Positions 1-15,250 of a DNA stretch of 64,000 nucleotides are shown in pieces. The notes beneath the pieces are model-generated. The model was not told where the DNA came from and did not search any database. It saw only the letters and a program-made list of their open reading frames with translations. The position numbers and the translations under genes were made by a program. Every line of letters starts with the position of its first letter. Within the stretch, counting starts at the first letter, position 1. The DNA comes from Algoriphagus sp. Y33. Lineage in GTDB: Bacteria > Bacteroidota > Bacteroidia > Cytophagales > Cyclobacteriaceae. The DNA lies in assembly GCF_014838715.1 (NCBI RefSeq), contig NZ_CP061947.1, positions 992,001-1,056,000 of the forward strand, in the 5' to 3' direction.

Positions 1-2769
1 CATAATGCCTAAAAAAGAAGTTAAACCAAACGGATAACCTGTAATGACCAATCCTAATGCTGCACCCAAAAAACTCAACGGCATTGTCATCATTACCAAG
101 AAAACCAATTTTGGATTTTTGAATTGAAACAACAGGATAAAGAAGATAAGCAACACACCTGCAAACAACGCTTTAGCCAATGGGATATAGTTTTCTACTT
201 CGCTTTCTTCTTCGCCTCCATACGATAAGGTTGTTTGCTCTGACTTGGATATTTTTTTGATTTCTGTTTTTAAATCGGACAACACTTTATAAGGCAATAC
301 ACCACGTTTCACATCAGCACGAACGGTAATTGTTCTTGTGCCGTTTCTACGGATAATTTGCCCCTCGCTCCAATCGTTGGTAATGCTTGTTGCTATTTGT
401 CTTACAGGAACGGTTGCCCCTGTTAATGGCGATGTTACATTTTGATTGGCAATGTCGTCAAAACTGTTTTTTTGATTGGGTTCGTTCATCAGTTTTATGC
501 TTACAGGATAATCGCCCTCCCATATTGTACCGATTGGTAAGCCCGACAAACCTGCTGCTAATGATGTGGCTACTACGCCTTTGGTTAAACCTAATCGGTT
601 AGCGATTTCATCGTTTATCTGAACGCTTACGCCTTGTCGTTGATTGAGGTAATCGGTTCTTGCCCAAATAATGTTTTCGTTCTTTTCCATTATGGTTTTT
701 ACCTGCTGTGCCAATGTTTTAATGCTATCTAAATTATCCCCACTGATACGCACTTCAATCGGTGCGGTGGTACTCAACAGGTCTAATTGTTTCATTCGCA
801 CATAAGCATTCGGAAAAAGATTTCTGTAATTACTTTCATATTCGTTCAAAATGGCAAGTGCATCATCAGCCGTTTGCGTATTGACAACCAACTGAGCATA
901 ATTTTTTGAGGGAAAATTAGGTGCATAAGTGGTGTGGAAACGTGGCGAACTTGTACCAACAAATGCAGCTACATTTACAACTCGTTTGTCTTTCATCAGC
1001 ATTTGTTCCAAACTGTCGGAAACAAAAGCGGTTTGCTCTAAAGTACTTCCCTCCGGCAAATATATTTCAACGGCAAATTGATTTCTATCCACTTTCGGAA
1101 ATAACTGACGTGGCACTAATGCAAGAATGGCAACGCCTAACGCTATTGAAACAACACCTATCAGGATAGTGATTTTGGGAAGACGAAAAGCCCATTCCAA
1201 TGTACGGTCATACACTGCCTGTACACTGTCCAACAATGATTTTTTCTTCTTTTTACCTTCTTCTTTTTTAATTCCCTTTTTGATAAATACATAGCTCATA
1301 TAGGGAACAAGCAAACAAGCTATAAGCAACGAAGCAATTAATGCTACACCGATTGTGATAGGCAACGAACCTACAAAGTCGCCTACCATTCCGTCAAGGA
1401 AAAACACCATTGGAACGTAAGTAGCTATGATAGCCATTGTTGCGGAAAATACAGGGACAAACAATTCTTTGGCACTTTTCCAAGCGGCATTCCAAGGGGT
1501 TTCCTTGTGGTCTAATTTTTCAATATGTCCGTCTAAAACCACAATGGCATTGTCCACTACCATACCCAATACCACAATTAAACCTGCCAATGAAACGGTG
1601 TGCAGCTCTACGCCCAACGCATATAAAATACCTATGGTTATGAAAATTGAAATTGGAATGGTTGCCCCTGCAACTGCTGCCACACGAAAAGGTAACAACA
1701 ACATTGTTACAATAATTACTGCAAGAATGGCAATGGCAAATTCCTTTAAAAAGTGCGTAATGGAATGCCCAACCGCTTGCGGCATATCGGCTATTTTTGC
1801 TACCTGCACATCGGGCGAAATTTTACCTTTTAATGTTTGTAAAGTTTCATCTACGGTTTTACCAAAAGCAACAATGTTGTTGCCAGGTTGCATTTCCAAT
1901 GAAATCAGCAGACTGGTTGTGCCGTTGTTTTTAATGTAAGCATCGGGCTTTGGATATTCCCTTACTACACGGGCTACATCTTTTACACGGATAACATTAC
2001 CTGTGGGGTCGGTATAAACGATTTGGTTTTTGATGTCTTCTTCTGTGTTGTAAGAAGTGGGAATGTGTATGGGGGTTATCTGCTCCGCATTGTCTAATTC
2101 CCCACCATAATAAACTGCTCCCTCCAACTGTGCTGCCGCCAAAACACTAATTGGTTTTACGTTATAATAAGCCAACTTATCATTGTCGGGATAAATGGTA
2201 ATCTGTTCCTGCGTTAAGCCAAAGTGCTTTACTTTTGACACTGCTTTTATTTTTCGCAATTCGGTTTCAATCACTTTCAGTTCACGGTCAAGTTCTTTAT
2301 AGGTTTTACTATCCGATTGTACCGTCAGCAAAATAGCTGATGTGTTACCGAAATCGTTGTTGGCAATGAGGGCTAAGACCTGGGGCGGTAATTCAGCTTT
2401 CAGATTGTTCAGCCCAAATTTTATTTTATCCCAAAAGGCATCGGGGTCTTTTACACTGTTGTTTACTTCTACAAATACAATCAACATTCCCTCTTTGGAA
2501 ATGGAATAGGTTTTTTCCCTGTTCACTTCCTCAAATCCGTACAGAAAACTTTCCACTTTGGTAGCTAACTGTTCTTCTACCTGTGCTGAATTTGCTCCCG
2601 GGTAAACACCTATGATTAAGCCCTGACGAATGGTAAATTCGGGAAACTCGTTTCTTGGCATTACCAACAATGAGAATACGCCAAACAGTACTAAAATAGC
2701 CGTGATGATGATGGCTATTTGCTTATGCTTCATAGCCAATTCTATGATATTGAAATTCCTTTTTTCCAT
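1..2769 (-). CDS. RND efflux pump inner-membrane permease (C-terminus beyond window)
   Basis: Frame stays open on the minus strand from ATG at 2769 to base 1, giving 923 codons of a protein normally about 1,000-1,050 residues, so only the C-terminal end is missing. It starts with a basic segment and TM helix, then the periplasmic start typical of HAE1-type pumps (PRNEFPEF, PGANSAQVEEQLATKVE). A TM4 motif VVDNAIVVLDGHIEKLD supplies the proton-relay aspartate. Proton-driven export of toxic compounds is the expected role; the substrate cannot be read. The start lies 3 bp after the stop of the adaptor gene (2773-3801), so the two are one operon. A TetR-type operator lies upstream of that operon at 3829-3849. 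Base use is A+T-rich compared with the acrB homologue at 33451-36624, and the two pumps are not recent copies. Confidence 0.93.
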   Translation of the reverse strand, partial: MEKRNFNIIELAMKHKQIAIIITAILVLFGVFSLLVMPRNEFPEFTIRQGLIIGVYPGANSAQVEEQLATKVESFLYGFEEVNREKTYSISKEGMLIVFVEVNNSVKDPDAFWDKIKFGLNNLKAELPPQVLALIANNDFGNTSAILLTVQSDSKTYKELDRELKVIETELRKIKAVSKVKHFGLTQEQITIYPDNDKLAYYNVKPISVLAAAQLEGAVYYGGELDNAEQITPIHIPTSYNTEEDIKNQIVYTDPTGNVIRVKDVARVVREYPKPDAYIKNNGTTSLLISLEMQPGNNIVAFGKTVDETLQTLKGKISPDVQVAKIADMPQAVGHSITHFLKEFAIAILAVIIVTMLLLPFRVAAVAGATIPISIFITIGILYALGVELHTVSLAGLIVVLGMVVDNAIVVLDGHIEKLDHKETPWNAAWKSAKELFVPVFSATMAIIATYVPMVFFLDGMVGDFVGSLPITIGVALIASLLIACLLVPYMSYVFIKKGIKKEEGKKKKKSLLDSVQAVYDRTLEWAFRLPKITILIGVVSIALGVAILALVPRQLFPKVDRNQFAVEIYLPEGSTLEQTAFVSDSLEQMLMKDKRVVNVAAFVGTSSPRFHTTYAPNFPSKNYAQLVVNTQTADDALAILNEYESNYRNLFPNAYVRMKQLDLLSTTAPIEVRISGDNLDSIKTLAQQVKTIMEKNENIIWARTDYLNQRQGVSVQINDEIANRLGLTKGVVATSLAAGLSGLPIGTIWEGDYPVSIKLMNEPNQKNSFDDIANQNVTSPLTGATVPVRQIATSITNDWSEGQIIRRNGTRTITVRADVKRGVLPYKVLSDLKTEIKKISKSEQTTLSYGGEEESEVENYIPLAKALFAGVLLIFFILLFQFKNPKLVFLVMMTMPLSFLGAALGLVITGYPFGLTSFLGIM

Positions 2770-2772
2770 AGT

Positions 2773-3801
2773 TTATTTGATGATTTGGATAGGTGTGCCG
2801 TTGCTTAATTTCTGTTGCCCTGAAATGATGATGTTTGCGTTTTGCAGAACTTCGCCCTGTACCAAAACTTTGTTGTCAATCAATGCAATGGTTTTTACAG
2901 CTATTTTTTCTGCTTTTCCGTTTTGCTCAACATAGATAAATTGATTGCCGTATACATCGTTTTGCAAGGCTTTGTTTGAAATTAAACTGCCCGAACGTTT
3001 GTCTTGTGCGGTAGTTTGAACGGAACAAATCATTCCGGGCTTTATATCGCCTGTTGTGTTTTGAACTTCAATTTTTACAGGATAGGTATGTGATAAAATA
3101 TCCGCCGATACGCCAATTTCTTTTATTGTTCCTGTTACAGTTTTATCAATGGCAGTGATAGTAATTTGTGCATTTTCTCCTTTTTTGAATTGGCTTATTT
3201 CGTTTTCAGAAACAGGGATTTTGACGTAAACGGTTTGTATGTTCAGCAACTCCAGTACTGTCACTGATGGTACTACATTCATACCTGCCTGTACATTTTT
3301 CTTTCCAATCACACCACTTGCAGGTGCATACAGGTAGCAATCGCTGATGCTTTTTTGTGCAATGGCTACGGCTGCTTTTGCCTGTGCCAAACCTGTTTCC
3401 ACTTCTATCCATTTTATTTCGGGCAATGTGCCGTTTTCTTTCATTGGCTTCATTCTCCGGTAAGCGTCTTCTGCCTGTTGCTGGCTTGCTAATGCTACTT
3501 GATAGGCGTTTTGTGCATTGGAAGCATTGACTTTGGCTAACAACTGTCCTTTCCTTACGTTTTGCCCCTCCTCAACAAATATTTCAGTAATTGTCCCCAT
3601 TGTGGCAAAACTTAAAGCTGTTGTTTTTTGGGCTTCTACCACACCCGAATAGCCCGATTGAATAAGCCCTGTGTAGCTTGTGGGCTGTTCCGTTTGAACA
3701 TTGATTACATTGTTTTTTTCTGCGGTTTGCTCCTTCTCTTTGTGTGAGCAACTTGCTAATACAAGTATTCCCGCTAATGCTAAATAATTTACTTTATTCA
3801 T
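2773..3801 (-). CDS. RND pump periplasmic adaptor (HlyD/MFP family lipoprotein)
   Basis: The 342-residue protein has an N-terminal lipoprotein signal with lipobox LASC (Cys about residue 18). It then shows a split biotinyl-lipoyl-like hairpin domain (IFVEEGQNVRKGQLLAKV and later APASGVIGKKNVQAGMNV), an alpha-helical hairpin around residues 105-150, and a beta-barrel domain (ISQFKKGENAQITI). That is the standard order for RND membrane-fusion adaptors linking the inner-membrane pump to a TolC-type channel. No TolC gene is in the visible part of the operon; it may follow the permease beyond base 1. Start ATG at 3801 is 28 bp from an upstream 21-bp inverted repeat that also precedes the TetR gene at 8919-9518. 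Confidence 0.93.
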   Translation of the reverse strand: MNKVNYLALAGILVLASCSHKEKEQTAEKNNVINVQTEQPTSYTGLIQSGYSGVVEAQKTTALSFATMGTITEIFVEEGQNVRKGQLLAKVNASNAQNAYQVALASQQQAEDAYRRMKPMKENGTLPEIKWIEVETGLAQAKAAVAIAQKSISDCYLYAPASGVIGKKNVQAGMNVVPSVTVLELLNIQTVYVKIPVSENEISQFKKGENAQITITAIDKTVTGTIKEIGVSADILSHTYPVKIEVQNTTGDIKPGMICSVQTTAQDKRSGSLISNKALQNDVYGNQFIYVEQNGKAEKIAVKTIALIDNKVLVQGEVLQNANIIISGQQKLSNGTPIQIIK

Positions 3802-3828
3802 TGTTTTGTTTTTTTAATTTTACTATTT

Positions 3829-3849
3829 GACTAAATACGTTTTTTAGTC
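3829..3849. promoter_or_regulatory. Operator copy 1: TetR-type inverted repeat before the efflux operon
   Basis: This 21-bp inverted repeat GACTAAA-N7-TTTAGTC has perfect 7-bp arms. It lies 28 bp upstream of the adaptor start, and extra TTTTTGACT half-sites occur at about 3851-3859 and 3892-3901. The same layout recurs at 8873-8893 and 9526-9546. A dyad of this spacing is expected for a TetR-family dimer; assignment to the TetR at 8919-9518 is inference from the copy directly before that gene. Confidence 0.75.
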
Positions 3850-3913
3850 GGTTTTTGACTCAAAAAAAATGCTCCGAAAAGCACATTCTTTTTTTTTTTG
3901 ACTATACCCTTGA

Positions 3914-4114
3914 TTAAAATTTCAACCAGCATACCTGCTTTGTCCTCCAAAACTTTATTCTTGTTATTTTTTCATCTTTCTCCGGCATACGTTTTTTATA
4001 ATATTTTGAACTTGGTGAGCGTCCCATTATCCGGCACACCTTAGCATAACTTACATCCGGTCTTTTCTCCACGATATAAGCAATACAACGCTCTTTTTGA
4101 TAAGGTGTTACCAC
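3914..4114 (-). pseudogene. IS3-family OrfB transposase, truncated N-terminal fragment
   Basis: The frame begins with a GTG codon overlapping the OrfA stop, as in IS3 elements where OrfB is made by -1 frameshifting. About 50 residues look like OrfB start sequence (VTPYQKERCIAYIVEKRPDV, MGRSPSSKYYKKRMPEK). The frame then runs into unrelated residues and stops. The DDE catalytic region (about 230 residues) is absent, so this cannot be a working transposase. The break falls next to the promoter region of the efflux operon. Confidence 0.8.
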
Positions 4115-4373
4115 TTTTTTGAGTTGATCTCCTTCAAAATATCAATCGAAATCTGCTGATCTGCTACGATACGCTTGAGGCGGGCATTTTCCGATTCCAG
4201 CTCCTTCACCCGCTGAAGTTCCGAGAGGGTCATACCGCCATATTTGCTTTTCCAGTTATAGAATGTCTGTTCGGAAATACCGTATTCCCGGCAGATCTCC
4301 ACCCTTTACTGCCTCCCTGCTGGCTCTGCAGCACCTTTAAAATCTGAGTTTCTGTAAATCTTGATTTTTTCAT
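4108..4373 (-). pseudogene. IS3-family OrfA transposase, frameshifted
   Basis: Reading from ATG at 4373 gives MKKSRFTETQILKVLQSQQ, the usual N-terminus of IS3/IS911-type OrfA. The frame is lost at about 4302-4306, and the next frame continues correctly with EICREYGISEQTFYNWKSKY (helix-turn-helix) followed by a leucine-zipper-like ELESENARLKRIVADQQ. One indel therefore splits an otherwise complete OrfA of about 88 residues. With the truncated OrfB this is a dead IS3 remnant. No terminal repeats could be identified. Confidence 0.82.
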
Positions 4374-4867
4374 TGTTTTTTCCTGACGTTAAAATTATTA
4401 CTCTAAATCTAAACTTTCTGAAAAAAGCAGCCATGTACCGATATATTTCAGTAGCACATCAATTACACTTGCTCGCTGCCTATACCGTACAACGGTTAAG
4501 AATAACTATGTCCTGTGTTTTCTATCATCAAGGATATCGTTTTAGATGGATTATTTATAGCAAATTCTGGAACATAAAATGTTCTCCGATACTATATAAA
4601 GTATTATAAATAATAGAATTAGAATTACAACGGGTAAATTATTCTAGTGTCCAATAAAAACTATTAGAATAAGCCATTTCGAATATTAATAAACTATTTT
4701 TTGGAATTTACAACTAACAAAAATCTGATCTACAGGGAACGTAATAAGACTTTTGATGAGGCGAGAAAAAAATAATAGTAGCTAATAACAAAATTAACCT
4801 ATTCTAACAGTTTCATATATTTATTATGGGGGGTGTTAATTACTGTATTAAGATTCTAATCTTTACA
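4374..4867. other. Gene-free A+T-rich spacer beside the IS3 remnant
   Basis: About 490 bp with no convincing reading frame. It separates the IS3 remnant from the 3' end of the oxidoreductase operon and is probably partly debris of the insertion. No clear hairpin terminator or promoter was found. Confidence 0.5.
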
Positions 4868-5626
4868 TTAATGTATGGTCATACCGCCATCTACAATATG
4901 TTCTTGCCCTGTAATAAATGAGGCTTCTTCTGATGCTAGAAACACTACAATACCTGTTAAATCCCTTGTTTCTGAAATTCTACCCAACGGTATTTCATCT
5001 AAAGCACTTCTTCCTTCTTTGGATGCATCTTTATCGGTAGCTTCTATCATCATAGGTGTAAGTACAAAACCTGGATGCATGGAGTTTACCCGTATGTTTT
5101 TTGGTCCATACTCAAAGGCAACAGCTTTGGTCATGCCTCTAATAGCAAATTTACTGGCCATATAAGCAATATTTGGGAATCCAAAACAGGCAACAATTCC
5201 TGCTATGGATGATACATTGATTATTGAGCCTACTCCAGCTTTCAACATTGAAGGGATGACAGCTTGCATCCCCAACAGAATGCTGTGCTGGTTAATATCA
5301 ATGACTTTAAGGTAGTCTTCATATTTAAGTTCCATTACACCAGCTACTGGACCTAAAATCCCTGCATTGTTTACCAAGACATTGATATTACCAAATTTGG
5401 CTTCGCCCTGTTTTACTGCATTTTCCCAATCTTTCACATTGGTAACATCCAGCTTCACAAAAAGTGCATTTTCGCCTAGTTCTTTGGCTAAAGCTTCACC
5501 CATTTCTTCTCTGACATCTGCTAAGATGACTTTAGCTCCTTGGTTGATAAATTCTCTAGCATGGGCTTCTCCCATTCCTCTTGATGCGCCTGTTATAAGG
5601 GCAACTTTGTTTTCTAATCTATTCAT
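4868..5626 (-). CDS. Short-chain dehydrogenase/reductase (classical SDR)
   Basis: A 252-residue classical SDR. The nucleotide-binding motif TGASRGMG is at residues 12-19, NNAG at 86-89, the catalytic Ser in NVSS near 140, and the YxxxK pair at Tyr155/Lys159. Asp at the end of beta2 (ILADVRE) favours NAD over NADP. Sequence type resembles 3-alpha/20-beta-hydroxysteroid and secondary-alcohol dehydrogenases, but the substrate is not determinable. It is the last gene of a minus-strand set (SDR, Zn-ADH, HSL-type esterase, SDR) lying 104 bp after the esterase. Confidence 0.9.
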   Translation of the reverse strand: MNRLENKVALITGASRGMGEAHAREFINQGAKVILADVREEMGEALAKELGENALFVKLDVTNVKDWENAVKQGEAKFGNINVLVNNAGILGPVAGVMELKYEDYLKVIDINQHSILLGMQAVIPSMLKAGVGSIINVSSIAGIVACFGFPNIAYMASKFAIRGMTKAVAFEYGPKNIRVNSMHPGFVLTPMMIEATDKDASKEGRSALDEIPLGRISETRDLTGIVVFLASEEASFITGQEHIVDGGMTIH

Positions 5627-5730
5627 TTTAATTATATTTAATTATTAAAATATTACTATATATGTTGCTACAACTCTTAGATCATTCACAGTAGAGTGTG
5701 TTGTCTTTTTTGCCCCTTTAAACGATTATA

Positions 5731-6690
5731 CTATATATATTTATCATAAAATTCTGCATACGAATTGTATGTAAAATCAAGAGCATCTTTCCCTACACCT
5801 TTATTACCTAGAATAATATCAAAACCATGGTAGCAGGTTTTATAAAATTTGAAGATTACCGGGATGTTTTCTCTTTTCAAACTTTCTACATAGTTTATCG
5901 TTTCATCTCTAAATGGTTCTAAGCCACCTACAAAAGTTATAGCAGGTGGCAGGTCTCTATAGTTGGTATTTCTGGCAGGAGCGGCATAGGAAGGTATTTT
6001 TGCCCCACTTTTTGATAAATCTCTTAGATATAATTTCCAAGCAAAATTATTGGAATCGGAATTCCATAAAGGAACATCCATATCCCTGCCTGATTCTGTA
6101 ATAGCCCTATCATCGATCATAGGATAAATAGGCATTTGAAATGCCACATTTACATCCTTGGTATCTCTGATTTTTAGGGTTACAGCTGCGGCCAATCCTC
6201 CACCGGCACTGTGCCCGGCAATAATAAATTTGTCTTTGGTAATTCCTAGTTTGTCAATATTATCTTTTATCCATAATAAGGTATCGTAGCAATCATTAAA
6301 AGCTGCTGGATAAGGGTCATTAACTGCTTTCCTATAATCTGGGGCTACTATAATACAGGGTCTCTTTTTAATAAAGGATTCATAATAATTTCTATACTCT
6401 TCAGGAGTTCCGATAACCAATCCGCCCCCATGGCAGTATAGCATTACTGGTAACTTTTCTTTTTGATTTAAAGGTTTAAATATTCTTACTCGAATTTTTG
6501 GGCCATTATTATTACTGTGTATGAATATTTCTTGACAATCTAAACCATCGATACCTTTGCCTTTAACAAGTTTAGTTCGAAGATCCATCAGCTTGATTCC
6601 CCATTTTTTGGTTAATAAGTACGCTACAATTTTAAGAGGATAAAAAAGGGTCTTTAGATCCTGATGAACCATTTCTTTAGTTACTTTCAT
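5731..6690 (-). CDS. Alpha/beta hydrolase, HSL family (family IV esterase/lipase)
   Basis: A 319-residue cytoplasmic hydrolase without signal peptide. The oxyanion-hole motif HGGG is at residues 87-90, the nucleophile Ser161 in GHSAGG, and the likely triad partners are Asp262 (PFRDE) and His288 (CYHGF). These are the hallmarks of the hormone-sensitive-lipase family acting on short-chain esters. Placed between Zn-alcohol dehydrogenase and SDR genes on the same strand, it may release an alcohol that the dehydrogenases then oxidise; this pathway is inference. Spacing of 121 bp to the upstream gene leaves room for a separate promoter. Confidence 0.9.
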   Translation of the reverse strand: MKVTKEMVHQDLKTLFYPLKIVAYLLTKKWGIKLMDLRTKLVKGKGIDGLDCQEIFIHSNNNGPKIRVRIFKPLNQKEKLPVMLYCHGGGLVIGTPEEYRNYYESFIKKRPCIIVAPDYRKAVNDPYPAAFNDCYDTLLWIKDNIDKLGITKDKFIIAGHSAGGGLAAAVTLKIRDTKDVNVAFQMPIYPMIDDRAITESGRDMDVPLWNSDSNNFAWKLYLRDLSKSGAKIPSYAAPARNTNYRDLPPAITFVGGLEPFRDETINYVESLKRENIPVIFKFYKTCYHGFDIILGNKGVGKDALDFTYNSYAEFYDKYI

Positions 6691-6811
6691 TTGTTCCTAA
6701 TTTATCTTTTAAATGACTGTTAGCTCAAAATTCCAATAGAAGATACCATATTCAGTACCCACAACAGCCACTTTGGTCTAATAAAAATTATTTAAGAGTG
6801 TCTTCAATAGC

Positions 6812-7912
6812 TTAAAAGGAAGTAACCACCGAACGTCCTATAATTTTTCCTTCATCAAGCTCATCATAAGCTCTTTGAATATCATCGATGTTAATTTCCT
6901 GATGAATGAGATCATCTAAATTCATCCGTCCTTGTAAATAAAGGTTGGCATACATAGGAATATCCCTTTTCAAGTTGGAAGACCCCATCATTACGCCTTC
7001 CAGTTTTCTGCCTGGTATGATAAAATCGACCGTTCCGTCAACTTCTGTTTGAACTCCTGGAGTATGCATACCAATGAGGTAAGCACTGCCTCCTCGTTTT
7101 GCCATAGAAAGAGCTTGTTTGGATGTTACTGGCAAGCCAATAACTTCAAAAGCAGCATCTACTCCAACTCCGGTAATTTCCATAACCTTAGCAATTGGGT
7201 CTTCATTTTTGGAATTGATGATATGGGTGGCTCCAAATTTTTTAGAAAACTCTAATTTATCATCCTGAATATCTACCACAATTATGGTTGTAGCACCAGC
7301 TATTTTAGCTCCTGAAACGGCATTTAAGCCTACGCCACCCGCCCCAATTATTGCAACCGAATCTCCTGGACGAACTTTGGCAGTATTGATTATGGCACCA
7401 GCTCCTGTTACGGTACCACATCCTAAAAGACAGGCTTGAGCAAAGGGCATTTCCTTAGGGATTTTAGCCAATTGATTTTGATGGACGAGTGCTTTTTCAG
7501 CAAAACCTCCTAAACCGAAAGCCTGTGTTAAACTGCTACCATCTTTCATACTTAATCTTGGTTTATCACCTGGTTTTCTGAGTGTTTTCTCAGGATGCTG
7601 GCAGGTATGTGTATGACCAGACAAACAAGATTCACATTCTCCACAATATTGAATTAAACATCCAACTACATGGTCACCAACCTGAAACTCTGTTACTCTA
7701 TTTCCCACACTTTCTACAACACCAGCAAGTTCATGCCCCATTACTATAGGAAAAGGATATAAACCAAAATCATTTTGTTGCAAGTGGGCATCAGAATGAC
7801 ATAATCCTGATGCTTTTACATTAATTAACACTTCGTGTTCCATTGGCGAATCTATCTCTGCTTCTTTGGTAACGAATGGCGTTTTTACTTTTTCTACTAT
7901 TGATATTTTCAT
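6812..7912 (-). CDS. Zinc-dependent alcohol dehydrogenase (MDR superfamily)
   Basis: A 366-residue medium-chain dehydrogenase. Catalytic zinc ligands are Cys38, His60 (GHELAG) and Cys165 (LLGCGTVTG). Structural zinc cysteines are 90, 93, 96 and 104 (CGECESCLSGHTHTC). The Rossmann motif GAGGVG is at 190-195, and the acidic VVDIQ after beta2 suggests NAD. It is of the class-III/benzyl-alcohol dehydrogenase type and would oxidise a primary alcohol to the aldehyde. It lies 32 bp after the upstream SDR, so they are probably co-transcribed. Confidence 0.92.
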   Translation of the reverse strand: MKISIVEKVKTPFVTKEAEIDSPMEHEVLINVKASGLCHSDAHLQQNDFGLYPFPIVMGHELAGVVESVGNRVTEFQVGDHVVGCLIQYCGECESCLSGHTHTCQHPEKTLRKPGDKPRLSMKDGSSLTQAFGLGGFAEKALVHQNQLAKIPKEMPFAQACLLGCGTVTGAGAIINTAKVRPGDSVAIIGAGGVGLNAVSGAKIAGATTIIVVDIQDDKLEFSKKFGATHIINSKNEDPIAKVMEITGVGVDAAFEVIGLPVTSKQALSMAKRGGSAYLIGMHTPGVQTEVDGTVDFIIPGRKLEGVMMGSSNLKRDIPMYANLYLQGRMNLDDLIHQEINIDDIQRAYDELDEGKIIGRSVVTSF

Positions 7913-7944
7913 CTCCGATATTTTTAAATTTTTAAATTTTTAAA

Positions 7945-8700
7945 TTACTGTGCTATCCAACCACCATCAACTGGTAGTGCTATTCCTGTTATAAAAGAGG
8001 CATCATCCGAACATAAAAAAACAGCCGCATTAGCAATTTCTTCGGGAGTTCCCAAACGACCAATAACTTGCTGTGCTGCAATTTGGGCCTCAAGTACATT
8101 ATCTCCTCCTACGGTTCGTTCAAACATCGGAGTTTTAATACCTCCAGGGCAAATAGCATTTACCCTCAATCCTTGTTTTGCATAATCAACTGCAGTGGTC
8201 TTGGTCAACCCTACTACACCATGTTTTGATGCCACATAGATTGGAAGAGTAGGAACGGCTACCAACCCTGCAGCTGATGCCGTATTTACAATTGATCCCT
8301 TGCCATTTTTTAGCATTTCCGGAATCTCGTATTTCATACATAGCCAAACACCTTTTAAATTGATGTTCATCAACCTATCAAACTCTTCAGAAGTAGTTTC
8401 AGCTATAGGAGCTACTTTTCCTTCTATACCTGCATTGTTAAAAGCAAAATCTAATTTACCATAGGTAGATACTGTTTTTTCAACCATGGACTTCACATCC
8501 ATTTCCTTTGAAACATCACATTTAATGTAAATGGCTTCGCCGCCTTCTGCTTTAATTAATTGGATAGTTTCACTGGCATCTACGACATCAGCAACAACTA
8601 CTTTGGCCCCTTCCTTAGCAAAGGCTAATGCACTTGCGCGACCCATTCCGGTAGCACCACCAGTTACAATTCCAACTTTGTTTTCAAGTTTCTTTTTCAT
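7945..8700 (-). CDS. Short-chain dehydrogenase/reductase, first gene of the operon
   Basis: A 251-residue classical SDR with TGGATGMG (residues 13-20), NNAG near 89-92, and Tyr155/Lys159 in the YxxxK motif. The C-terminus has the FITGIALPVDGG motif of glucose-dehydrogenase-like SDRs. VVADV after beta2 suggests NAD. It heads the minus-strand oxidoreductase operon. A 21-bp inverted repeat at 8873-8893, about 170 bp upstream, matches the operator before the adjacent tetR gene. Confidence 0.9.
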   Translation of the reverse strand: MKKKLENKVGIVTGGATGMGRASALAFAKEGAKVVVADVVDASETIQLIKAEGGEAIYIKCDVSKEMDVKSMVEKTVSTYGKLDFAFNNAGIEGKVAPIAETTSEEFDRLMNINLKGVWLCMKYEIPEMLKNGKGSIVNTASAAGLVAVPTLPIYVASKHGVVGLTKTTAVDYAKQGLRVNAICPGGIKTPMFERTVGGDNVLEAQIAAQQVIGRLGTPEEIANAAVFLCSDDASFITGIALPVDGGWIAQ

Positions 8701-8872
8701 AATTTTTTGATTTTTATTTGATTTTAAATTTTGTTATCTGTATTTAAAAATTATACTCCAAGTGCTTTTTTGAAATTGGCAAAATTTCTGTTTTAATTAA
8801 TTCTTCGTTTTTCATATTCATTAGAAGTAGAATACAAATTTGGCAGTAGGATTTTAATATAAAAAACATTTT

Positions 8873-8893
8873 GACTAAATAAGTTTTTTGGTC
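8873..8893. promoter_or_regulatory. Operator copy 2: TetR-type inverted repeat before the oxidoreductase operon
   Basis: GACTAAA-N7-TTTGGTC has one mismatch between arms and the same 7-7-7 layout as the sites at 3829 and 9526. It sits between the tetR stop (8919) and the SDR start (8700), the expected place to control the SDR-ADH-esterase-SDR set. Confidence 0.75.
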
Positions 8894-8918
8894 GAAATAC
8901 GGTTAAAAAAAAATTGCT

Positions 8919-9518
8919 CTATCTCTTAATGCCATTGATTAAAACAGATACTAACAACTCTGCTTTATCTGCCAATGATTTGAATTTATTGTTTATTAAA
9001 ATATCCATTTCAATACCTCTTACGCAACTTACCAGAAGTTCACTCAACGTTTCAATTTCCATGGTAATTTCTTTAGTGAAAAAGTTAGCTTTTACACCCT
9101 TTCTTAAAATAGAACTCAAAAGATTCTTCTCTTCATTATCATATCTATTCCGAAGATTGGTGAAATCTTTATTAAACCTGCCCTCTAAATCATTTTCTAT
9201 GGCAAAGCGGTATAAATTGGTTTTTTCTTGTAGGGTTTTAATTTTGGTTACGATGTAAGTCTTTAGCATGTCAATTTCGTTGGTTTCTTTATTAACAGCT
9301 TTCTTAACAGTTTGAAAGAATTCATCCATTTCAAGGTTTATAACCGCATTAAAAATCTCGTTTTTATCCTTAAAATAATAGTATAAAGTGCTTTTACCCT
9401 TACCAGCCGACTTTGCAATATCCTCCATGGTGGTTTTGTTTAAACCATATTGCTGAATTAGTTTTTTAGCGCCATTTATGATGTCCTGAACAATAATTTC
9501 TTCTTTTTCCATTATCAT
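8919..9518 (-). CDS. TetR/AcrR-family transcriptional repressor
   Basis: A 199-residue protein (start at 9518, or Met3 at 9512). The N-terminal TetR helix-turn-helix is clear: GAKKLIQQYGLNKTTMEDIA, then GKGKSTLYYYFKDKNEIFNA at residues 38-57. The C-terminal two thirds are helical and should bind an inducer. A 21-bp dyad lies 8 bp upstream of the start, so autorepression is likely. Matching dyads precede the oxidoreductase operon and the RND operon. The inducer is probably a small hydrophobic compound handled by both. Confidence 0.93.
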   Translation of the reverse strand: MIMEKEEIIVQDIINGAKKLIQQYGLNKTTMEDIAKSAGKGKSTLYYYFKDKNEIFNAVINLEMDEFFQTVKKAVNKETNEIDMLKTYIVTKIKTLQEKTNLYRFAIENDLEGRFNKDFTNLRNRYDNEEKNLLSSILRKGVKANFFTKEITMEIETLSELLVSCVRGIEMDILINNKFKSLADKAELLVSVLINGIKR

Positions 9519-9525
9519 ACTTTTT

Positions 9526-9546
9526 GACTAAAATCGTATTTTGTTC
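9526..9546. promoter_or_regulatory. Operator copy 3: TetR-type inverted repeat at the tetR promoter
   Basis: GACTAAA-N7-TTTGTTC has two mismatches between arms and the same spacing as the other two copies. It is 8 bp upstream of the tetR start, so a bound repressor would block its own promoter. Confidence 0.7.
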
Positions 9547-9807
9547 GACAAAAGTATAAACAGTTTTTTGATTGTGCAAATTTTTTTTGCTTTTTTTGTT
9601 GTTGCCTGTATTTGTGGGATGGGATTGGCTCTTTTGCAAACTTTGGGTGGTGGGTTGGCTTGGTGCGGTTTGCAAATGTGCCAATGGCGTTGGCTAAAAA
9701 TTTTTTCCTGTGCGGTGGGCTTTTTTTAATTTTTTTCTGTGTCAGCAGTTGTCGGGGCGTGGTCGTCTGTCAGAGGTCGGTCGGGTCTTGCAGGGTCTGT
9801 CCACCAT
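9547..9807. other. Strand-asymmetric G/T-rich spacer next to the attC-like site
   Basis: About 260 bp of plus strand consisting mainly of G and T, with poly-T runs and repeated TTTGCAAAnnTGG-like words (about 9634-9684). Open frames across it are low-complexity and have no protein-like features. It directly adjoins the attC-like palindrome at 9808-9946 and may be part of the same mobile unit. Confidence 0.5.
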
Positions 9808-9946
9808 TGCCGCTAACGTTTTGCGGCTTGGCGTAGTGGCGGATTTTTAGCACAAAAGCTCAATCGAAGAACTGCACTTTAACCTACCACAAAACTGTCA
9901 TACGAGGCACTGAATCCGCCATTACGCCAAACCGCTGTTAGGCGTA
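9808..9946 (-). repeat. attC-like folded recombination site
   Basis: An imperfect palindrome of about 138 bp, within the size range of integron attC sites. On the plus strand the arms are CCGCTAACGTTTTGCGG plus TTGGCGTAGTGGCGGATT on the left (9810-9847) and AATCCGCCATTACGCCAA plus ACCGCTGTTAGGCG on the right (9913-9944). The left arm carries about 4 extra unpaired bases. Read on the minus strand, the outer boxes are GCCTAAC (fits RYYYAAC) and GTTAGCG (partial fit to GTTRRRY). It begins 5 bp after the bestrophin stop codon, the usual place of attC at the end of a cassette. Confidence 0.65.
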
Positions 9947-9950
9947 GTTT

Positions 9951-10853
9951 TTATTTCAACTTGTCGCATACTTCTTTACAATTCTGTTCAATTGTCTTAC
10001 AAATTTCATCTATTGATACAGATGTTTTATTTTCCGAAAATGGCTCGCCAAATAAGTTTGCCAATTTGTTGATTGTCAAAAATGCAGTACTTATTATTAC
10101 CATTATTGGAACAGCTAAAAACTCAAAACCACTTTCTTCGCCACCTAAGTCAATGTCACCAATAAACAAAGGGATTAGGATTACATAGAAACTCACTATT
10201 AATTTAGTAAATGCACTATAAATCATTAAAAATGGTGTGTTCTTTATTCTTTCTGCTTTTCCTTGAATTTCATAAAAACGATTGATGTGCTGCATCAAAT
10301 CTCCTTTTTCAATTCGGGCTATTGGTGCAAAATCATCTTCAATTTCTTTGGTAATAGCTAGTAAAATCTCATTTGAAATTTTATTATCAGCATTGATTTT
10401 AAATTCGGAAATAAGTTCAAGAGATTGACTGTCAAATGTCGGATGAGCGTTATTGTGCATCTCATTTTTTAGCTGTCTAATGTATAAAATGCTTAACTCT
10501 ATAACCTTTCGTCCTTTAAGACTTAGATTATTTTGTTTGATTTCTTTGAAATGTTGCTCATTACCGTAATAGGCAAAAAGTTTTGCTACAAAACTTCGTG
10601 TATTGTTAGTCAATTCACCAAATATTTTTCTTGCTTCCCACCATCTGTCATAAGCGGAATTCATTCTAAAGCCCAAGAAAAAAGCAACTGCAAGTCCAAA
10701 TACTGAACCTATTTGTCCTGATATTTTGTATATGTGGTCACCAAAATATTCTTCAAGAGCAAGCACTAAAATTGTATAAACCGTTGTGATTATAATAAAC
10801 GGTGTCGCAATTTTCAGCAAGTGAAATAAACCTTGTTTTTCTGTTTTTATCAT
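9951..10853 (-). CDS. Bestrophin-family anion channel
   Basis: A 300-residue membrane protein of the bestrophin/UPF0187 family. The signature FRMNSAYDRWWEARKIFGEL is at about residues 62-81, with TM helices at 17-35, 45-62, about 209-230 and about 240-262. Bacterial members form pentameric ion channels. Its start is 1 bp after the DUF2231-like gene's stop, so the two are translated together. It is the third gene of a three-gene block ending in the attC-like palindrome. Confidence 0.88.
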   Translation of the reverse strand: MIKTEKQGLFHLLKIATPFIIITTVYTILVLALEEYFGDHIYKISGQIGSVFGLAVAFFLGFRMNSAYDRWWEARKIFGELTNNTRSFVAKLFAYYGNEQHFKEIKQNNLSLKGRKVIELSILYIRQLKNEMHNNAHPTFDSQSLELISEFKINADNKISNEILLAITKEIEDDFAPIARIEKGDLMQHINRFYEIQGKAERIKNTPFLMIYSAFTKLIVSFYVILIPLFIGDIDLGGEESGFEFLAVPIMVIISTAFLTINKLANLFGEPFSENKTSVSIDEICKTIEQNCKEVCDKLK

Positions 10854-10854
10854 A

Positions 10855-11349
10855 TTAATCGTCTTCGTCTTTTTCAGCGTTATTCTTTTCTAATGCAGGT
10901 GAATTGTTTCCGCTTCTAATTTCTGTATGTCTTATTTCACCACCGGTTGTACCTGTCTGTTTGGCAAAGAATAATACCACAAATGCAAAAACTAATGCTG
11001 CTATTGAAATAATGGACGAAAAAGATTTTTGCTTAAAACTTGCCCAAAGACCAAGTAACGAAATGCCACCTAAAATATAAGATAGCAAGGCAAAGGTTTC
11101 AGCTGTTTCTTCGTGATTTTCGATGTAGTTTTCTGTTACACCACTTATTTTTTCCACGATTTCTTCGGCTCCTTCACCAGTTGACATAGCTGCTATTGCA
11201 GCTAATGCACTAAGAATAAAAATCATAAATGCTGTTCGTTTAACAGCTTCTGATTTTGAAACAAGTCCTGTAATCATTACAATTACTCCCACGATGGGGA
11301 AAATGATTGGTAAATGATTTACCACTAAATGCCAATGTGCTCCGTTCAT
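10855..11349 (-). CDS. DUF2231-like four-helix membrane protein
   Basis: Starting at ATG 11349 (MNGAHWHLVVNHLPIIFPIV) gives 164 residues; the longer frame to 11430 would overlap the upstream gene by about 60 bp and lacks membrane character. Four TM helices are visible at about residues 11-30, 39-56, 84-104 and 110-127, followed by a charged C-terminal tail. The conserved HWHLVVNHLPI start, with histidines at the membrane face, is like DUF2231 proteins, which may bind a metal or haem. It sits between a VIT1-like transporter and a bestrophin with 17-bp and 1-bp gaps. Confidence 0.72.
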   Translation of the reverse strand: MNGAHWHLVVNHLPIIFPIVGVIVMITGLVSKSEAVKRTAFMIFILSALAAIAAMSTGEGAEEIVEKISGVTENYIENHEETAETFALLSYILGGISLLGLWASFKQKSFSSIISIAALVFAFVVLFFAKQTGTTGGEIRHTEIRSGNNSPALEKNNAEKDEDD

Positions 11350-11366
11350 ATTATTGTATTTTAAAA

Positions 11367-12068
11367 TTAAACATTTACTCCAAATAGATAACCAACTAAC
11401 GCAGAAAGTACCATTGCAATTGTACCCCAAATAGTAATTCGTAAGATAGCTTTTCTAATGCTAGAACCACCAGTTTTAGCTGAAGTTGCTCCAAGAATGA
11501 TTAAGAAAATGATAGTAAAGCCATAGAGCCAATACTCCATACCTTTCACTGGGGCAAAGAGGACAACTAAAAGTGGTAGTATTCCGCCAACTGTAAAAGA
11601 GGCTCCTGAAGCCAATGCAGCTTGTATAGGGTTTGCTTGACTAATTTCGTTAATTCCTAATTCATCTCTAATATGTGTTCCTAATGCGTCCTTTTCTGTA
11701 AGTTCAACGGCTACCTGCATAGCTGTTTCCTTTTTTAGTCCACGTTTCTCATAGATTTGAGCCAAAATATTTAGTTCTGCTTCTGGCATTTCTTTTAGTT
11801 CTTTTATTTCTCTTTGGATGTCTGCCTTTTCGGTGTCTGTTTGTGAACTTACCGAAACATATTCACCAGCCGCCATTGATAATGCTCCCGCTACAAGTCC
11901 TGCTACTGTAGCTAAAACTGTAGGTTCTCTTGTCGCACTTGCTGCTGCAACACCAATTGCCAGACTTGAAATTGAAATTATACCGTCATTCGCTCCAAGA
12001 ACGGCAGCTCTCAACCAGTTGCTACGGTGTATGTAATGGCTGTCTAAGTAGTTGTCAATTGTTATCAT
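11367..12068 (-). CDS. VIT1/CCC1-family Fe2+/Mn2+ transporter
   Basis: A 233-residue protein with the family start: RAAVLGANDGIISISSLAIG in TM1, then LVAGALSMAAGEYVSVSSQ in TM2. A cytoplasmic helical segment follows (residues 80-140, EKRGLKKETAMQVAVELTEK), then three further TMs. This matches vacuolar-iron-transporter-like metal exporters. It is the first gene of the cassette-like block. Its start is 36-50 bp inside the inverted copy of GTTAGGCGTA (12104-12118) that marks the other block end. Confidence 0.92.
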   Translation of the reverse strand: MITIDNYLDSHYIHRSNWLRAAVLGANDGIISISSLAIGVAAASATREPTVLATVAGLVAGALSMAAGEYVSVSSQTDTEKADIQREIKELKEMPEAELNILAQIYEKRGLKKETAMQVAVELTEKDALGTHIRDELGINEISQANPIQAALASGASFTVGGILPLLVVLFAPVKGMEYWLYGFTIIFLIILGATSAKTGGSSIRKAILRITIWGTIAMVLSALVGYLFGVNV

Positions 12069-12103
12069 TTTCTTTTATTTGTTTTGTTAATTTCGGTCGT
12101 CTT

Positions 12104-12118
12104 AAAATTACGCCTAAC
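12104..12118 (-). repeat. Cassette-boundary core site complementary to the attC-like outer arm
   Basis: Read on the minus strand this is GTTAGGCGTAATTTT. It matches 14 of 15 bases of plus-strand 9937-9951, the outer arm of the attC-like palindrome, so the three-gene block is bracketed by inverted copies. The 7-mer GTTAGGC fits the integron crossover consensus GTTRRRY exactly. In integron cassettes the first bases of a cassette complement the R'' box of its own attC, because they adjoin in the circular form. Confidence 0.6.
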
Positions 12119-12130
12119 TTATTTATTTAT

Positions 12131-12177
12131 GCACCTTTGGTGCACATATCCAACCGTTTTCGGGTGGATATGTGCAC
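12131..12177. repeat. Strong hairpin between recombinase and cassette boundary
   Basis: A 16-bp stem with one A-G mismatch (arms 12140-12155 and 12162-12177, GTGCACATATCC against GGATATGTGCAC) closes a 6-base loop. A smaller hairpin GCACC-TTT-GGTGC lies beside it at 12131-12143. It starts 17 bp after the recombinase stop. It could be a terminator, but the minus-strand sequence after it lacks a clear T-run, so a recombination-site role is also possible. Confidence 0.6.
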
Positions 12178-12193
12178 TTTTGGTATTGTTTTT

Positions 12194-13300
12194 TTAAAGG
12201 TCATCAAATGGACTTTTTACTTTTTGGAGACTTTTCTGACTCACATGGGTATAGATTTCAGTCGTTTTGCTTGAACTATGCCCCAATAACTCCTGAATAA
12301 ACCTGAGATCCGTTCCGCTTTCCAGAAGATGGGTGGCGTAGCTGTGTCTTAGCCAATGAAGAGTCACCGGCTTCTTGATCCCGGCTTTACTCAATGCGGT
12401 TTTCAATACTTTTTGCAAACTTCCTTCACTATAGGCTGTATTCTTTTTACTCCCTTCAAATAAATAGCTTCCTGGCTTTTCCATTAGGTAATACGCTCTG
12501 AGCATCCCGATGATTTTATCACTGATCGGTACCATCCTGTCCTTCGCACCTTTCCCTTTATTGATTCTTAACATTCCTCTTTTTGAATCCACATCTTCCA
12601 GTTTGAGGTTCAATAATTCACTTCTTCTTAGTCCACAGGCATAGATGAGACTGAGCATCGTCCGATGCTTTACATTTTTGTGCGCTTGGAGTATATCTTT
12701 CACCTCTTCTTTGCTGAGTACATGGGGAAGCTGTTTGGGTTTTTTGGGTCTTTCGATCTCTATTGGTTCGAGCTTGCGTTTTTGTTTGTTCGAAAAGTAC
12801 AGCTTTACCGAATTGATCACCTGAGATTGAAAGCTAACTGAGTATTTTCTCTTAAGGATATAATTTTGGTGGAAATTTTCCAAATCCTCAGTGCTGATTT
12901 CTTCAGGCTTTTTGTTTTCCGTATAGCGGAAAAATAGGCTAAGGCTCTGGCTGTAGGTTTTTACCGTGGATTCGGCATAGCGTCTGTTCTGCATCCAGGC
13001 TATAAACTTTCTGATTTCTTGGTCTAAGTTGGGTGCCAATTCAGGCAGGTTTGCAGGTAATTGTACTGCTTTTATTTTTTTGAAACCGGAATAATCTATC
13101 CATGCTTTGCCTTTGAATAAGATGAGAAGTTCTTCCACAATGCCTTCCGAATAGGGGAGCGACCAAGCTCTTCGTTCGGGGTTCCATTTTGCCATAGACA
13201 GGGTTTTTACCAACTCTATAAGCTCTTGGTCATAATCGAATTGGAGCAATACCACTGCTTTCTTCTTCCAGATTGTAGATGTGGCAAAAATTGTTTTCAT
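12194..13300 (-). CDS. Tyrosine recombinase/integrase with HARP-like N-terminal module
   Basis: Start chosen at ATG 13300 (MKTIFATSTIWKKK), giving 368 residues; an upstream ATG at 13360 adds an unlikely Phe-rich stretch. Residues 15-62 (LQFDYDQELIELVKTL, KWNPERRAWSLP) resemble the HARP-type fold of SMARCAL1-like proteins. A SAM-like core-binding domain follows (about 90-175), then the catalytic domain with Arg225 (CGLRRSELL), Lys in NKGKGAKDR, His315-x-x-Arg318, His341 (LGHSSS) and nucleophile Tyr350. All catalytic residues are present, so it should be active. It lacks the extra helix insertion that defines IntI. It lies beside the cassette-like block and may mobilise it. Confidence 0.92.
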   Translation of the reverse strand: MKTIFATSTIWKKKAVVLLQFDYDQELIELVKTLSMAKWNPERRAWSLPYSEGIVEELLILFKGKAWIDYSGFKKIKAVQLPANLPELAPNLDQEIRKFIAWMQNRRYAESTVKTYSQSLSLFFRYTENKKPEEISTEDLENFHQNYILKRKYSVSFQSQVINSVKLYFSNKQKRKLEPIEIERPKKPKQLPHVLSKEEVKDILQAHKNVKHRTMLSLIYACGLRRSELLNLKLEDVDSKRGMLRINKGKGAKDRMVPISDKIIGMLRAYYLMEKPGSYLFEGSKKNTAYSEGSLQKVLKTALSKAGIKKPVTLHWLRHSYATHLLESGTDLRFIQELLGHSSSKTTEIYTHVSQKSLQKVKSPFDDL

Positions 13301-13504
13301 GGTCAAAAAAATGAAATGAAAATGAAAGTTAAGAAAAATTGATAGAATGCCTAATTTCATCTATTGAAGCCTTCGGAAAGGGCGAGTGTCAGCTTCTCCA
13401 CGGCAAAGTGAGCAATTGAATTCTTTCTGTTTCCCAAGTTGTTTTTTCTGATTATGAACCTGAATTACTCAAATCGGGTTTTGCAGACTTAACTCTACTA
13501 TTTC

Positions 13505-15250
13505 ATGGCTAGAACAGCTGAGCGTAAGGTCACCATGGGGCAGGTCTTTAAGACCATTATTTGGCCCCGGAGAAAGCATTTGTTTTTAGGACTGTTTTTG
13601 ATCATTATCTCCCGTCTAGCAAGCCTAGTGCTGCCTGGAGCGAGTAAAATCTTGATTGATGACGTGATTCCCTCCAATGATTTGACTATGCTGAAATGGC
13701 TGATCGGAGGCGTGGTGCTGGCAATTGTGGTGCAGGCATCCACTTCCTATGCGCTGACCCAGATCCTCAGTGTGGAAGCCCAAAATCTGATTTCCAAGCT
13801 CCGATCACAGGTTCAGGCACATATCATCAAGCTCCCGATCCGGTTCTTTGATAATGCAAAAACGGGGGAGTTGGTGTCCAGGATTATGACCGATGTGGAA
13901 GGTGTGAGAAATCTGGTCGGAACCGGATTTGCCCAAATGATAGGCGGTTTATTGACAGCTGTTATTTCCCTTTTTCTGCTGATCAGTATCAGCCCGATGA
14001 TGACGCTCTATGTGCTTTTGCCGGTGGTGATCTTTGGGTTGGTTTCCCTGAAAGCCTTTGGGAAAATCAGGCCGATTTTCCGTGAACGCGGCAAAATCAA
14101 TGCACAGGTCACGGGAAGATTGACCGAAACCCTAGGCGGAATCAGGGTGATCAAGGGCTTCAATGCAGAGCAGCAGGAGATTAATACCTTTGCTAGGGGA
14201 GTAGATGAGCTGTTTCAGAATGTTAAAGCCAGCCTGACCGCGACAAGTTTTGTGACTTCTATGGGCGCTTTGCTGTTGGGCTTGGCATCGGCGGGAATCA
14301 TGGGAATGGGGGGCTATATGATTATGCAGGGAGAGATGACTTTTGGGGATTTTCTTGCCTTCACACTTTACTTGGGATTTATGATTGCTCCGATCGTGCA
14401 GATGTCCAATATAGGCAGTCAGCTTACCGAGGCTTTTGCGGGTTTGGACCGTACGGAGGAAATCATGAATACTCCCTTGGAAGCGGATGACCGTACCAGA
14501 ACGCTGGCATTAACCGATTTTAGTGGGGACATCAGATTTGACAAGGTGTCATTCGCCTATGAGCAAGGCAAAGAAGTGATCAAGGGAGTAAGTTTCCATG
14601 CCCCGGCGGGTTCTGTGACTGCATTGGTAGGAACTTCCGGTTCCGGTAAAACAACCATTGCCGGACTTGCGGCTACGTTTTTGAACCCGGATTCGGGAAG
14701 GATTTCGCTGGATGGGCACGACCTGCAGACGGTAACACTGGACTCTTTTCGGGCTAAGTTGGGCGTGGTGCTACAGGACGATTTTCTGTTTGAAGGCACG
14801 ATCAGGGAGAATATCCTTTTTCCGCGACCCAATGCAAGCGGGGAAGATTTGCAGAAAGCGGTAGTTGCTGCGCATGTGCAGGAGTTTACCGATCGCTTTG
14901 AGGATGGCTTGGATACCTTGATCGGGGAGAGGGGAGTGAAGCTCTCCGGTGGGCAAAGGCAGCGTATAGCGATTGCGAGAGCTATTTTGGCTGATCCCAA
15001 AATCCTGATTCTGGATGAGGCAACCTCTAATTTGGATACCGAATCTGAAACATTGATTCAGGCGAGTCTGAAGGAGTTGATGAAAGGGAGAACCACTTTT
15101 GTAATTGCCCACAGACTGAGTACAATCCGTCAGGCAGACCAAATATTGGTGGTAGAAAAAGGCACTATCGTGGAGCAGGGGCAGCATGATGAACTTATTG
15201 CGCTGCAAGGCAGGTATTATCAGCTGTATACTTATCAGGCGAGGATCTAG
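13505..15250 (+). CDS. ABC exporter, fused permease-ATPase (MsbA/multidrug type)
   Basis: A 581-residue half-transporter. Six TM helices lie in residues 20-310. The ATPase domain has Walker A GTSGSGKTT at 376-384, Q-loop VVLQDD, signature LSGGQ at 480-484, Walker B KILILDE at about 499-505 and H-loop IAHRLS. A homodimer exporting lipid or drug is expected. Gene and surroundings are more G+C-rich than the preceding 13 kb, so this is where normal chromosomal composition seems to resume. Diverges from the recombinase gene with a 200-bp gap. Confidence 0.93.
   Translation: MARTAERKVTMGQVFKTIIWPRRKHLFLGLFLIIISRLASLVLPGASKILIDDVIPSNDLTMLKWLIGGVVLAIVVQASTSYALTQILSVEAQNLISKLRSQVQAHIIKLPIRFFDNAKTGELVSRIMTDVEGVRNLVGTGFAQMIGGLLTAVISLFLLISISPMMTLYVLLPVVIFGLVSLKAFGKIRPIFRERGKINAQVTGRLTETLGGIRVIKGFNAEQQEINTFARGVDELFQNVKASLTATSFVTSMGALLLGLASAGIMGMGGYMIMQGEMTFGDFLAFTLYLGFMIAPIVQMSNIGSQLTEAFAGLDRTEEIMNTPLEADDRTRTLALTDFSGDIRFDKVSFAYEQGKEVIKGVSFHAPAGSVTALVGTSGSGKTTIAGLAATFLNPDSGRISLDGHDLQTVTLDSFRAKLGVVLQDDFLFEGTIRENILFPRPNASGEDLQKAVVAAHVQEFTDRFEDGLDTLIGERGVKLSGGQRQRIAIARAILADPKILILDEATSNLDTESETLIQASLKELMKGRTTFVIAHRLSTIRQADQILVVEKGTIVEQGQHDELIALQGRYYQLYTYQARI

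Follow-up and report, generated by a model that had tools for sequence, protein, structure and literature searches.

The window is a stretch of 64,000 nucleotides from Algoriphagus sp. Y33 (contig NZ_CP061947.1, positions 992,001 to 1,056,000 of the forward strand). Within it, a tyrosine recombinase gene stands ahead of three genes on the same strand, and the last of these is followed by a palindrome. A sequence-only reading of the locus had proposed an integron-like gene cassette with a recombinase other than IntI, the integron integrase, and a computational analysis of that proposal was carried out. On the minus strand the order is recombinase, candidate attI, cassette 1 (a VIT1 gene, a gene for an unknown protein and a bestrophin gene), attC 1 and a large cassette 2. 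The features, in window positions, are listed below.

12194..13300, minus strand: recombinase gene, encoding an Xer-type tyrosine recombinase of 368 residues, the presumed integrase (PF00589, PF13495)
13073..13300, minus strand: HARP-like N-terminal domain of the recombinase, residues 1-76 (weak PF07443 profile match)
12116..12193, minus strand: candidate attI, from the recombinase stop to the cassette start (position, genome-pair junctions)
9817..12117, minus strand: presumed cassette 1 (2301 bp), bounded by the TT that follows the presumed crossover and by the G of its own attC (match of start and R'')
11367..12068, minus strand: VIT1/CCC1 family transporter gene of cassette 1 (PF01988, E 1.7e-67)
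10855..11349, minus strand: second gene of cassette 1 (no Pfam or NCBIfam match)
9951..10853, minus strand: bestrophin family gene of cassette 1 (PF25539, E 3.6e-43)
9812..9942, minus strand: attC-like site 1, in the palindrome 9808-9946 (fold; 144.8 bits with covariance model R1; covariation in 52 family members)
1..9816, minus strand: part within the window of presumed cassette 2, with efflux and short-chain dehydrogenase genes (match of start and R'' 6/8, in a run of 6)

The palindrome, the three genes and the recombinase were located where the sequence-only reading had placed them, and 5 bp separate the last stop codon from the palindrome. Folded as single-stranded DNA, the palindrome gave -25.8 kcal/mol (z -2.94), and 1 of 200 shuffles was equally good. 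It carries AAC and GTT boxes, an imperfect hairpin and a presumed G^TT junction, by which it resembles an attC at the sequence level. The start of cassette 1, GTTAGGCGTAATTTT on the minus strand from 12118, agrees at 14 of 15 bases with the reverse complement of the 5' flank of the palindrome, GTTAGGCGTAGTTTT, as had been claimed. Written as a cassette start, GTTAGGCGTAATT stands against the wanted GTTAGGCGTAGTT. The candidate attI lies about 80 bp past the recombinase stop codon. It has an inverted repeat (12140-12152 and 12165-12177), and its presumed G^TT crossover falls at 12118/12117. An alternative start of the recombinase open reading frame (ORF) is possible at 13360.

The palindrome belongs to a family of sites. 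A BLAST search in its own genome gave it as single-copy, and this was overturned by the further sites that a covariance model, R1, built from 52 copies, detected. At E<=1 there were 12 matches in this genome, including the window site and its opposite-strand echo. Two are further sites of the same array, left of the window start, and three form a second array behind a paralogous recombinase at C1:3602219, to which a local search added a fourth site at C1:3601022. In window 1-14000, with the R1 filters off, nothing else was found below E 0.37 besides the site and its echo, and Rfam gave zero matches at E<=1 in window 9000-13500. By eye, an IS91-like transposase gene and a tyrosine recombinase gene lie left of the window at C1:985945-987549, inside the array and on the opposite strand. 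The model missed a site core at C1:983645, which carries the start wanted by attC 3.

BLAST found related copies in at least 51 of 196 same-family genomes, frequently spaced by about 1 kb and in one orientation (around four candidates were scored per genome, which makes the count a lower bound). Using rough E-values, R1 sites at E<=1e-4 were present in at least 108 of these 196 genomes and in at least 121 of 296 genomes of the phylum. Phage records gave no site match at E<=0.001. Among the 52 copies, the stem paired in 93.0% of cells, against 29-41% with the partners slid by 1-3 columns. Two-sided changes amounted to 134 cells against a shuffled mean of 46.6, a count that leans towards structure because the copies were chosen by similarity to the window site and the structure was taken from their consensus. 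Many copies have different genes between them, and the absence of such copies would have spoken against the cassette proposal. The same holds for relatives carrying the three genes without the palindrome, and no such block lacking the site was found in the relatives searched. With at most two candidates scored per genome, at least 20 of the 196 genomes (own included) matched the 2.16 kb block of cassette 1 by single genes or gene pairs, at 64-84%.

The arrangement of the sites was examined in 61 loci, in which R1 gave 215 matches, or 208 after removal of overlaps and echoes. The AAC and GTT boxes were both in the expected place in 184 of the 208. Of the neighbouring sites within 15 kb of each other, 154 pairs share a strand and 1 pair does not. 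In 106 of 142 testable neighbour pairs, at least six of the eight bases that follow the upstream GTT are complementary to the R'' of the next site. Controls gave 1.5-3.8%: 7/184 within one site, 2/133 with the wrong neighbour and 2.3% of 20000 random comparisons. Such ends would be expected of cassettes that were once circles, each start then being complementary to its own R''. One-way arrays with this property are a mark of integrons, and the claim made for cassette 1 extends across the arrays. By eye, pairing often resumes past the 6-7 matching bases after a constant A-against-G difference, which amounts to an A.C mismatch in the folded site and is perhaps strand-marking.

With the second set of loci described below, 117 of 165 between-site stretches have valid ends. 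Their bodies have a median of 1038 bp (quartiles 777 and 2149, maximum 12456), and the longest ORF is on the site strand in 94, on the other strand in 14, and in 9 none of 60 residues was found. Cassettes are common to different genera or duplicated inside arrays. A 3.6-kb cassette of genome G114 recurs in G023 (92.7% identity) and G122 (94.0%), and one cassette of G096 occurs twice in its own array, with a 92.6% copy in G078.

Copies that are highly alike and located 3' of genes could also be a dispersed palindromic repeat, terminator-like or resembling a miniature inverted-repeat transposable element (MITE), that was spread otherwise and left the match of start and R'' as a by-product. However, the start fits the R'' of the next site and not the other flank of the same site, and neither a terminator nor a MITE predicts a break at GTT after identical upstream sequence. 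A dispersed terminator or MITE was rejected by the boundary controls, and we give this explanation next to no credence.

A break of exactly this kind was seen in two genome pairs that share the same attI region and carry unrelated cassettes beyond it. G020 and G096 are identical over 120 nt through GTT, and the next 120 nt are 38% alike; G121 and G193 are 100% identical up to GTT and then 47%. The start of the first cassette was looked for in the interval from recombinase to first detected site, at 25 recombinases picked for nearby sites. It matched at 7 or more of 10 bases in all 25, and it lay 78-144 bp past the recombinase match in 21. A second set consisted of 40 recombinases with the N-terminal region, hand-picked among those whose surroundings had not yet been examined by place; the choice was not fully blind, as a few loci are in genomes that had already given BLAST hits. 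There the start lay 77-130 bp from the recombinase in 11 of 18 testable loci. An attI beside the integrase gene, as in classical integrons, is thus indicated by position in both sets and in the two genome pairs.

The sites are linked to this kind of recombinase in strand and direction. Around the 40 recombinases of the second set, 43 R1 hits at E<=0.01 were obtained, and all 43 lie downstream on the recombinase strand. Sites were found at 19 of the 40 loci and, where 3 kb or more of downstream sequence was present, at 17 of 25. A further comparison used 80 named loci, the best 80 among the matches listed, 53 with the N-terminal region and 27 without an aligned region. The 53 gave 47 hits, of which 46 are downstream and one is upstream; one palindrome echo was excluded, and none of the hits is then on the opposite strand. 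A downstream hit occurs in 17 of the 53, and in 14 of the 27 where 2 kb downstream is present. The 27 loci without the aligned region gave one hit, and the ORF concerned (404 residues) could accommodate the region. Named carriers include Algoriphagus ornithinivorans, Arundinibacter roseus, Flavobacterium enshiense, F. aciduliphilum, F. odoriferum, Algibacter onchidii, Zunongwangia mangrovi and several metagenome-assembled genomes. N-terminal-aligned recombinases were also observed in Saccharibacillus, Paenibacillus and Spirochaetota (L239, L240, L241, L243), where no R1 sites were seen; these may use other site families.

Elements that exploit Xer enzymes are known, and the chromosome-dimer Xer enzymes of the host might recombine the sites, leaving the recombinase of the array as a marker only. 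Such elements are mentioned in one article (PMC4792948). On the other hand, the sites lie downstream of, and on the same strand as, the domain-bearing recombinase, and the candidate attI is at its 3' end. A role of the host enzymes is therefore given little chance.

The window recombinase was compared with IntI and Xer proteins. NCBIfam NF040815 scored 234.7 bits, above its cut-off of 220, while the integron integrase family TIGR02249 scored 213.6 bits, below its cut-off of 265. The catalytic residues R225, K250, H315, R318, H341 and Y350 are all present. A complete catalytic set and a NF040815 score over the curated cut-off are what is expected of a XerA-like protein. The spacing from the catalytic K to the H is 65 residues, compared with 105-106 in nine proteins over the IntI cut-off. 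Therefore, the IntI insertion is absent from the window recombinase, and its description as a complete tyrosine recombinase without that insertion was correct. The spacing is 64-69 in 29 array recombinases (and in Xer-like proteins). An IntI integrase with the insertion near patch III, the IntI-specific feature, was looked for and not found; therefore, the system is not an IntI integron, and by the comparative tests it behaves as an integron would.

The nine IntI group together as a single clade (Shimodaira-Hasegawa-like approximate likelihood ratio test 100) in a tree of 51 proteins, and all 29 array recombinases fall outside it. The array recombinases do not form one clean clade (6 changes). 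The tree was a quick one with long branches and is therefore silent on a single origin of the trait. The aligned row of the G025 IntI lacks R and K and is perhaps misaligned or degraded. The closest named relative of the window recombinase is from Algoriphagus (87%), and the closest solved structures are XerA 5hxy and the archaeal Xer 4a8e.

The sites might be ordinary attC of classical integrons that have lost their integrase and are served by IntI in trans, the Xer-like gene being a bystander. The AAC/GTT boxes and the start logic are indeed attC architecture. Moreover, 84 of the 296 phylum genomes have a protein over the IntI cut-off, and some also carry R1 sites. However, in the family set of 196 genomes, 2 have a protein that scores over the TIGR02249 cut-off (a partial match in one of the two), against at least 108 with R1 sites; the genome of the window has no such protein. 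No R1 match at E<=0.05 was obtained around IntI in 20 stretches amounting to 113 kb, some of them overlapping and 14 with only up to about 1.5 kb per side. Furthermore, the candidate attI adjoins the Xer-like gene. Among the matches listed for genomes holding both IntI and R1 sites, those of G211, G472, G291 and G201 have the sites downstream of an array-type recombinase on the same strand. The IntI count in the family and the R1-free surroundings of IntI rejected supply in trans as a general explanation, and it is judged very unlikely.

The Xer-type recombinase has an additional N-terminal domain. PF07443 matched residues 1-76 of the window protein with E 0.0037, and a weak HARP profile match was found in 4 of 9 other array recombinases scanned (E 0.003-0.15). 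Among 240 relatives listed, precomputed PF07443 annotation is on P0198 and P0218 only. The isolated N-terminal model has a predicted local distance difference test score (pLDDT) of 89. In Foldseek, YciH came first (E 0.024) and the HARP domain of SMARCAL1, 4o66, second (E 0.19), both weak matches, and eIF1-type folds led in VIA-align. Naming the fold from these top rows was dropped, since the matches are too weak. The profile and fold matches to HARP are weak as well, and HARP-like is therefore a working name. In L123, L121, L064, L067, L122, L124 and L126 the recombinases have about 455-480 residues, and by eye their first 150 residues are two HARP-like repeats; in the three scanned, the profile match is in the second repeat. 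According to PMC4666394, HARP in SMARCAL1 is part of a fork-remodelling helicase.

The cargo of the arrays is varied. After ten of 100 listed cassette proteins, mostly very long or on the opposite strand, had been dropped by hand, 90 were scanned. Restriction-modification proteins, mercury transport, resistance-nodulation-division (RND) efflux and PF00144 hydrolases are among them. Presumed cassette 2 covers about 12.5 kb; it leaves the window and ends at a second attC at genome C1:989231-989361. By eye it holds about 10 genes (TetR, dehydrogenases, RND efflux, patatin-like, TolC-like). Its size is far above that usual for a cassette, and its ends agree over the run of 6.

The sites were also found on plasmids. 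In the tet(X2) plasmids L319-L323 (Riemerella, Myroides, Bacteroides, Empedobacter), an R1-type attC lies directly 3' of tet(X2), at about 2518-2648 and in L322 at 1359-1489. The five records share the site exactly to GTT and then have four different continuations. A Proteus mirabilis tet(X) record, L315, in which the site is between tet(X) and estT, shares it with a fifth continuation. The start matches its own R'' in 4 of the 5 tet(X2) records and fails in L319. The start of the site's own cassette is present in L314 and L316 and was not found for tet(X) in the Proteus plasmid L315. In L324, L325, L326 and L315, estT is preceded by a stretch that is the same from exactly GTT onwards, with four different sequences ahead of it. 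R1 found no site at E<=0.05 in the E. coli record L325. A search with 189 bases, in which GTT is at 143-145, matched 227 plasmid records; of 30 listed matches, 10 stop at 145-150 and 15 start at 139-143. Recombinases occur on plasmids as well. That of the Chryseobacterium sp. SNU WT5 plasmid (L317, 7998-9041) has four downstream same-strand sites, and the Chryseobacterium oryzae plasmid (L318) gave one partial site match only, E 0.094. On these sequences tet(X2) is read here as a putative cassette of the Xer-type system; for estT the same reading is less certain. A review (PMC8069840) connects ISCR2, IS26 and plasmids with the spread of the tet(X) variants, the prototype tet(X/X2) excepted; by term counts, the words integron and cassette are both absent from it.

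Several results weigh against the operation of these arrays by a domain-bearing, Xer-type recombinase. In the window's own genome, the matches at C1:520402, 531896, 575645, 2355948 and 4129550 are far from both recombinases found, and two of these five are weak (E about 0.08). The boundary test fails in 36 of the 142 neighbour pairs, for which undetected sites, degraded ends or insertion sequences are possible causes. It passes in 4 of 8 plasmid pairs and fails in the other 4, namely estT-floR in L324 and L326, another L326 pair and one L319 pair. No R1 site was found in the sequence retrieved around 21 of the 40 domain-bearing recombinases, including 8 with 3 kb or more downstream, and 36 of the 53 named domain-bearing loci lack a downstream site. 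On their downstream side, several domain-bearing recombinases come within some 2 kb of a contig end, as would be seen if assemblies broke at repeated sites. Of twenty homologues without the N-terminal region, 4 had sites nearby, 5 hits in all; at two of these loci the sites are downstream on the recombinase strand, and at the other two they are upstream and opposite in strand. The latter layout was noted for recombinases without the domain at G385:C7 220587, G425:C1 2539730, L178 and L188, and this divergent arrangement resembles class 1 integrons. Among the matches listed for genomes that also hold IntI, the G348 site is upstream on the same strand and the G425 site upstream on the opposite strand. 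The HARP assignment of the window protein, at 17.2 bits, is below the Pfam cut-off of 25, and the full recombinase model has a predicted template modelling score (pTM) of 0.51.

Nevertheless, we consider with high confidence that the window contains the first part of an integron-like cassette array operated by a non-IntI, Xer-type recombinase. This explanation is supported by the site family, the one-way arrays, the match of each start with its own R'', the attI position, the GTT breaks and the shared and duplicated cassettes. The alternative cassette-integration system suggested earlier is thereby supported, as the start logic holds across arrays and the sites are linked to a recombinase family. 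Gene capture and shuffling of this kind appears to occur in a group of environmental bacteria.

The system can be placed among known ones. With classical integrons it has in common one-way arrays, folded attC with AAC/GTT boxes, starts complementary to their own R'', junction breaks at GTT, an attI adjoining the recombinase gene and varied cargo. Unlike in classical integrons, the recombinase lacks the IntI insertion, falls outside the IntI clade and bears one or more N-terminal HARP-like domains. In class 1 integrons IntI diverges from its array, whereas the recombinase here points towards the array and the attI is at its 3' end. The site core is also highly conserved here, and some cassettes are multi-gene, up to 12.5 kb. 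XerA and XerH type single-recombinase systems act on a dif site. They share with the present recombinase the catalytic and core-binding domains and a NF040815 score over the cut-off, but the extra N-terminal domain and the link to attC-like arrays set the latter apart. Clusters of attC sites lacking integron integrase (CALINs) are likewise arrays without IntI, but here a cognate-looking recombinase and a candidate attI are present. The likeness to the HARP domain of SMARCAL1 consists of the profile match, the fold match with 4o66 and the annotation on two relatives; the domain is fused here to a recombinase and not to a helicase. In the IntegronFinder 2.0 article (PMC9024848), one complete Bacteroidetes integron, that of Salinibacter, is given besides those of Chlorobi and Ignavibacteriae. 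No such system is described in the titles and abstract openings listed from the open-licence literature, subscription journals and preprints being outside this scope.

As a mechanism, we infer that one folded attC strand would be cut at G^TT and the cassette would leave as a circle. Xer-type strand exchange would then insert the circle into attI or a further attC. The N-terminal HARP-like domain may help to recognise the folded hairpin, a role likened to the task proposed for the extra domain of IntI. We also lean, with some reserve, towards a broader view, in which "HARP-Xer integrons" would be a second, independently derived integron class and would serve Bacteroidota as their main means of cassette capture. 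A structure-recognising domain at the N terminus would stand in for the IntI insertion. In this view tet(X), perhaps along with further resistance genes of Bacteroidota, was made into a cassette by the system before its transfer to other bacteria on other mobile elements. A cassette origin would add something new to the history of tet(X).

If the system is as described, more than one type of tyrosine recombinase has come to capture cassettes through folded attC. One article (PMC4792948) gives the proposal that the extra domain of IntI let its ancestor recognise single-stranded sites, and a system without that domain would make the origin of single-strand recombination directly testable. A large gene-capture system would then also have been invisible to IntI-based searches.

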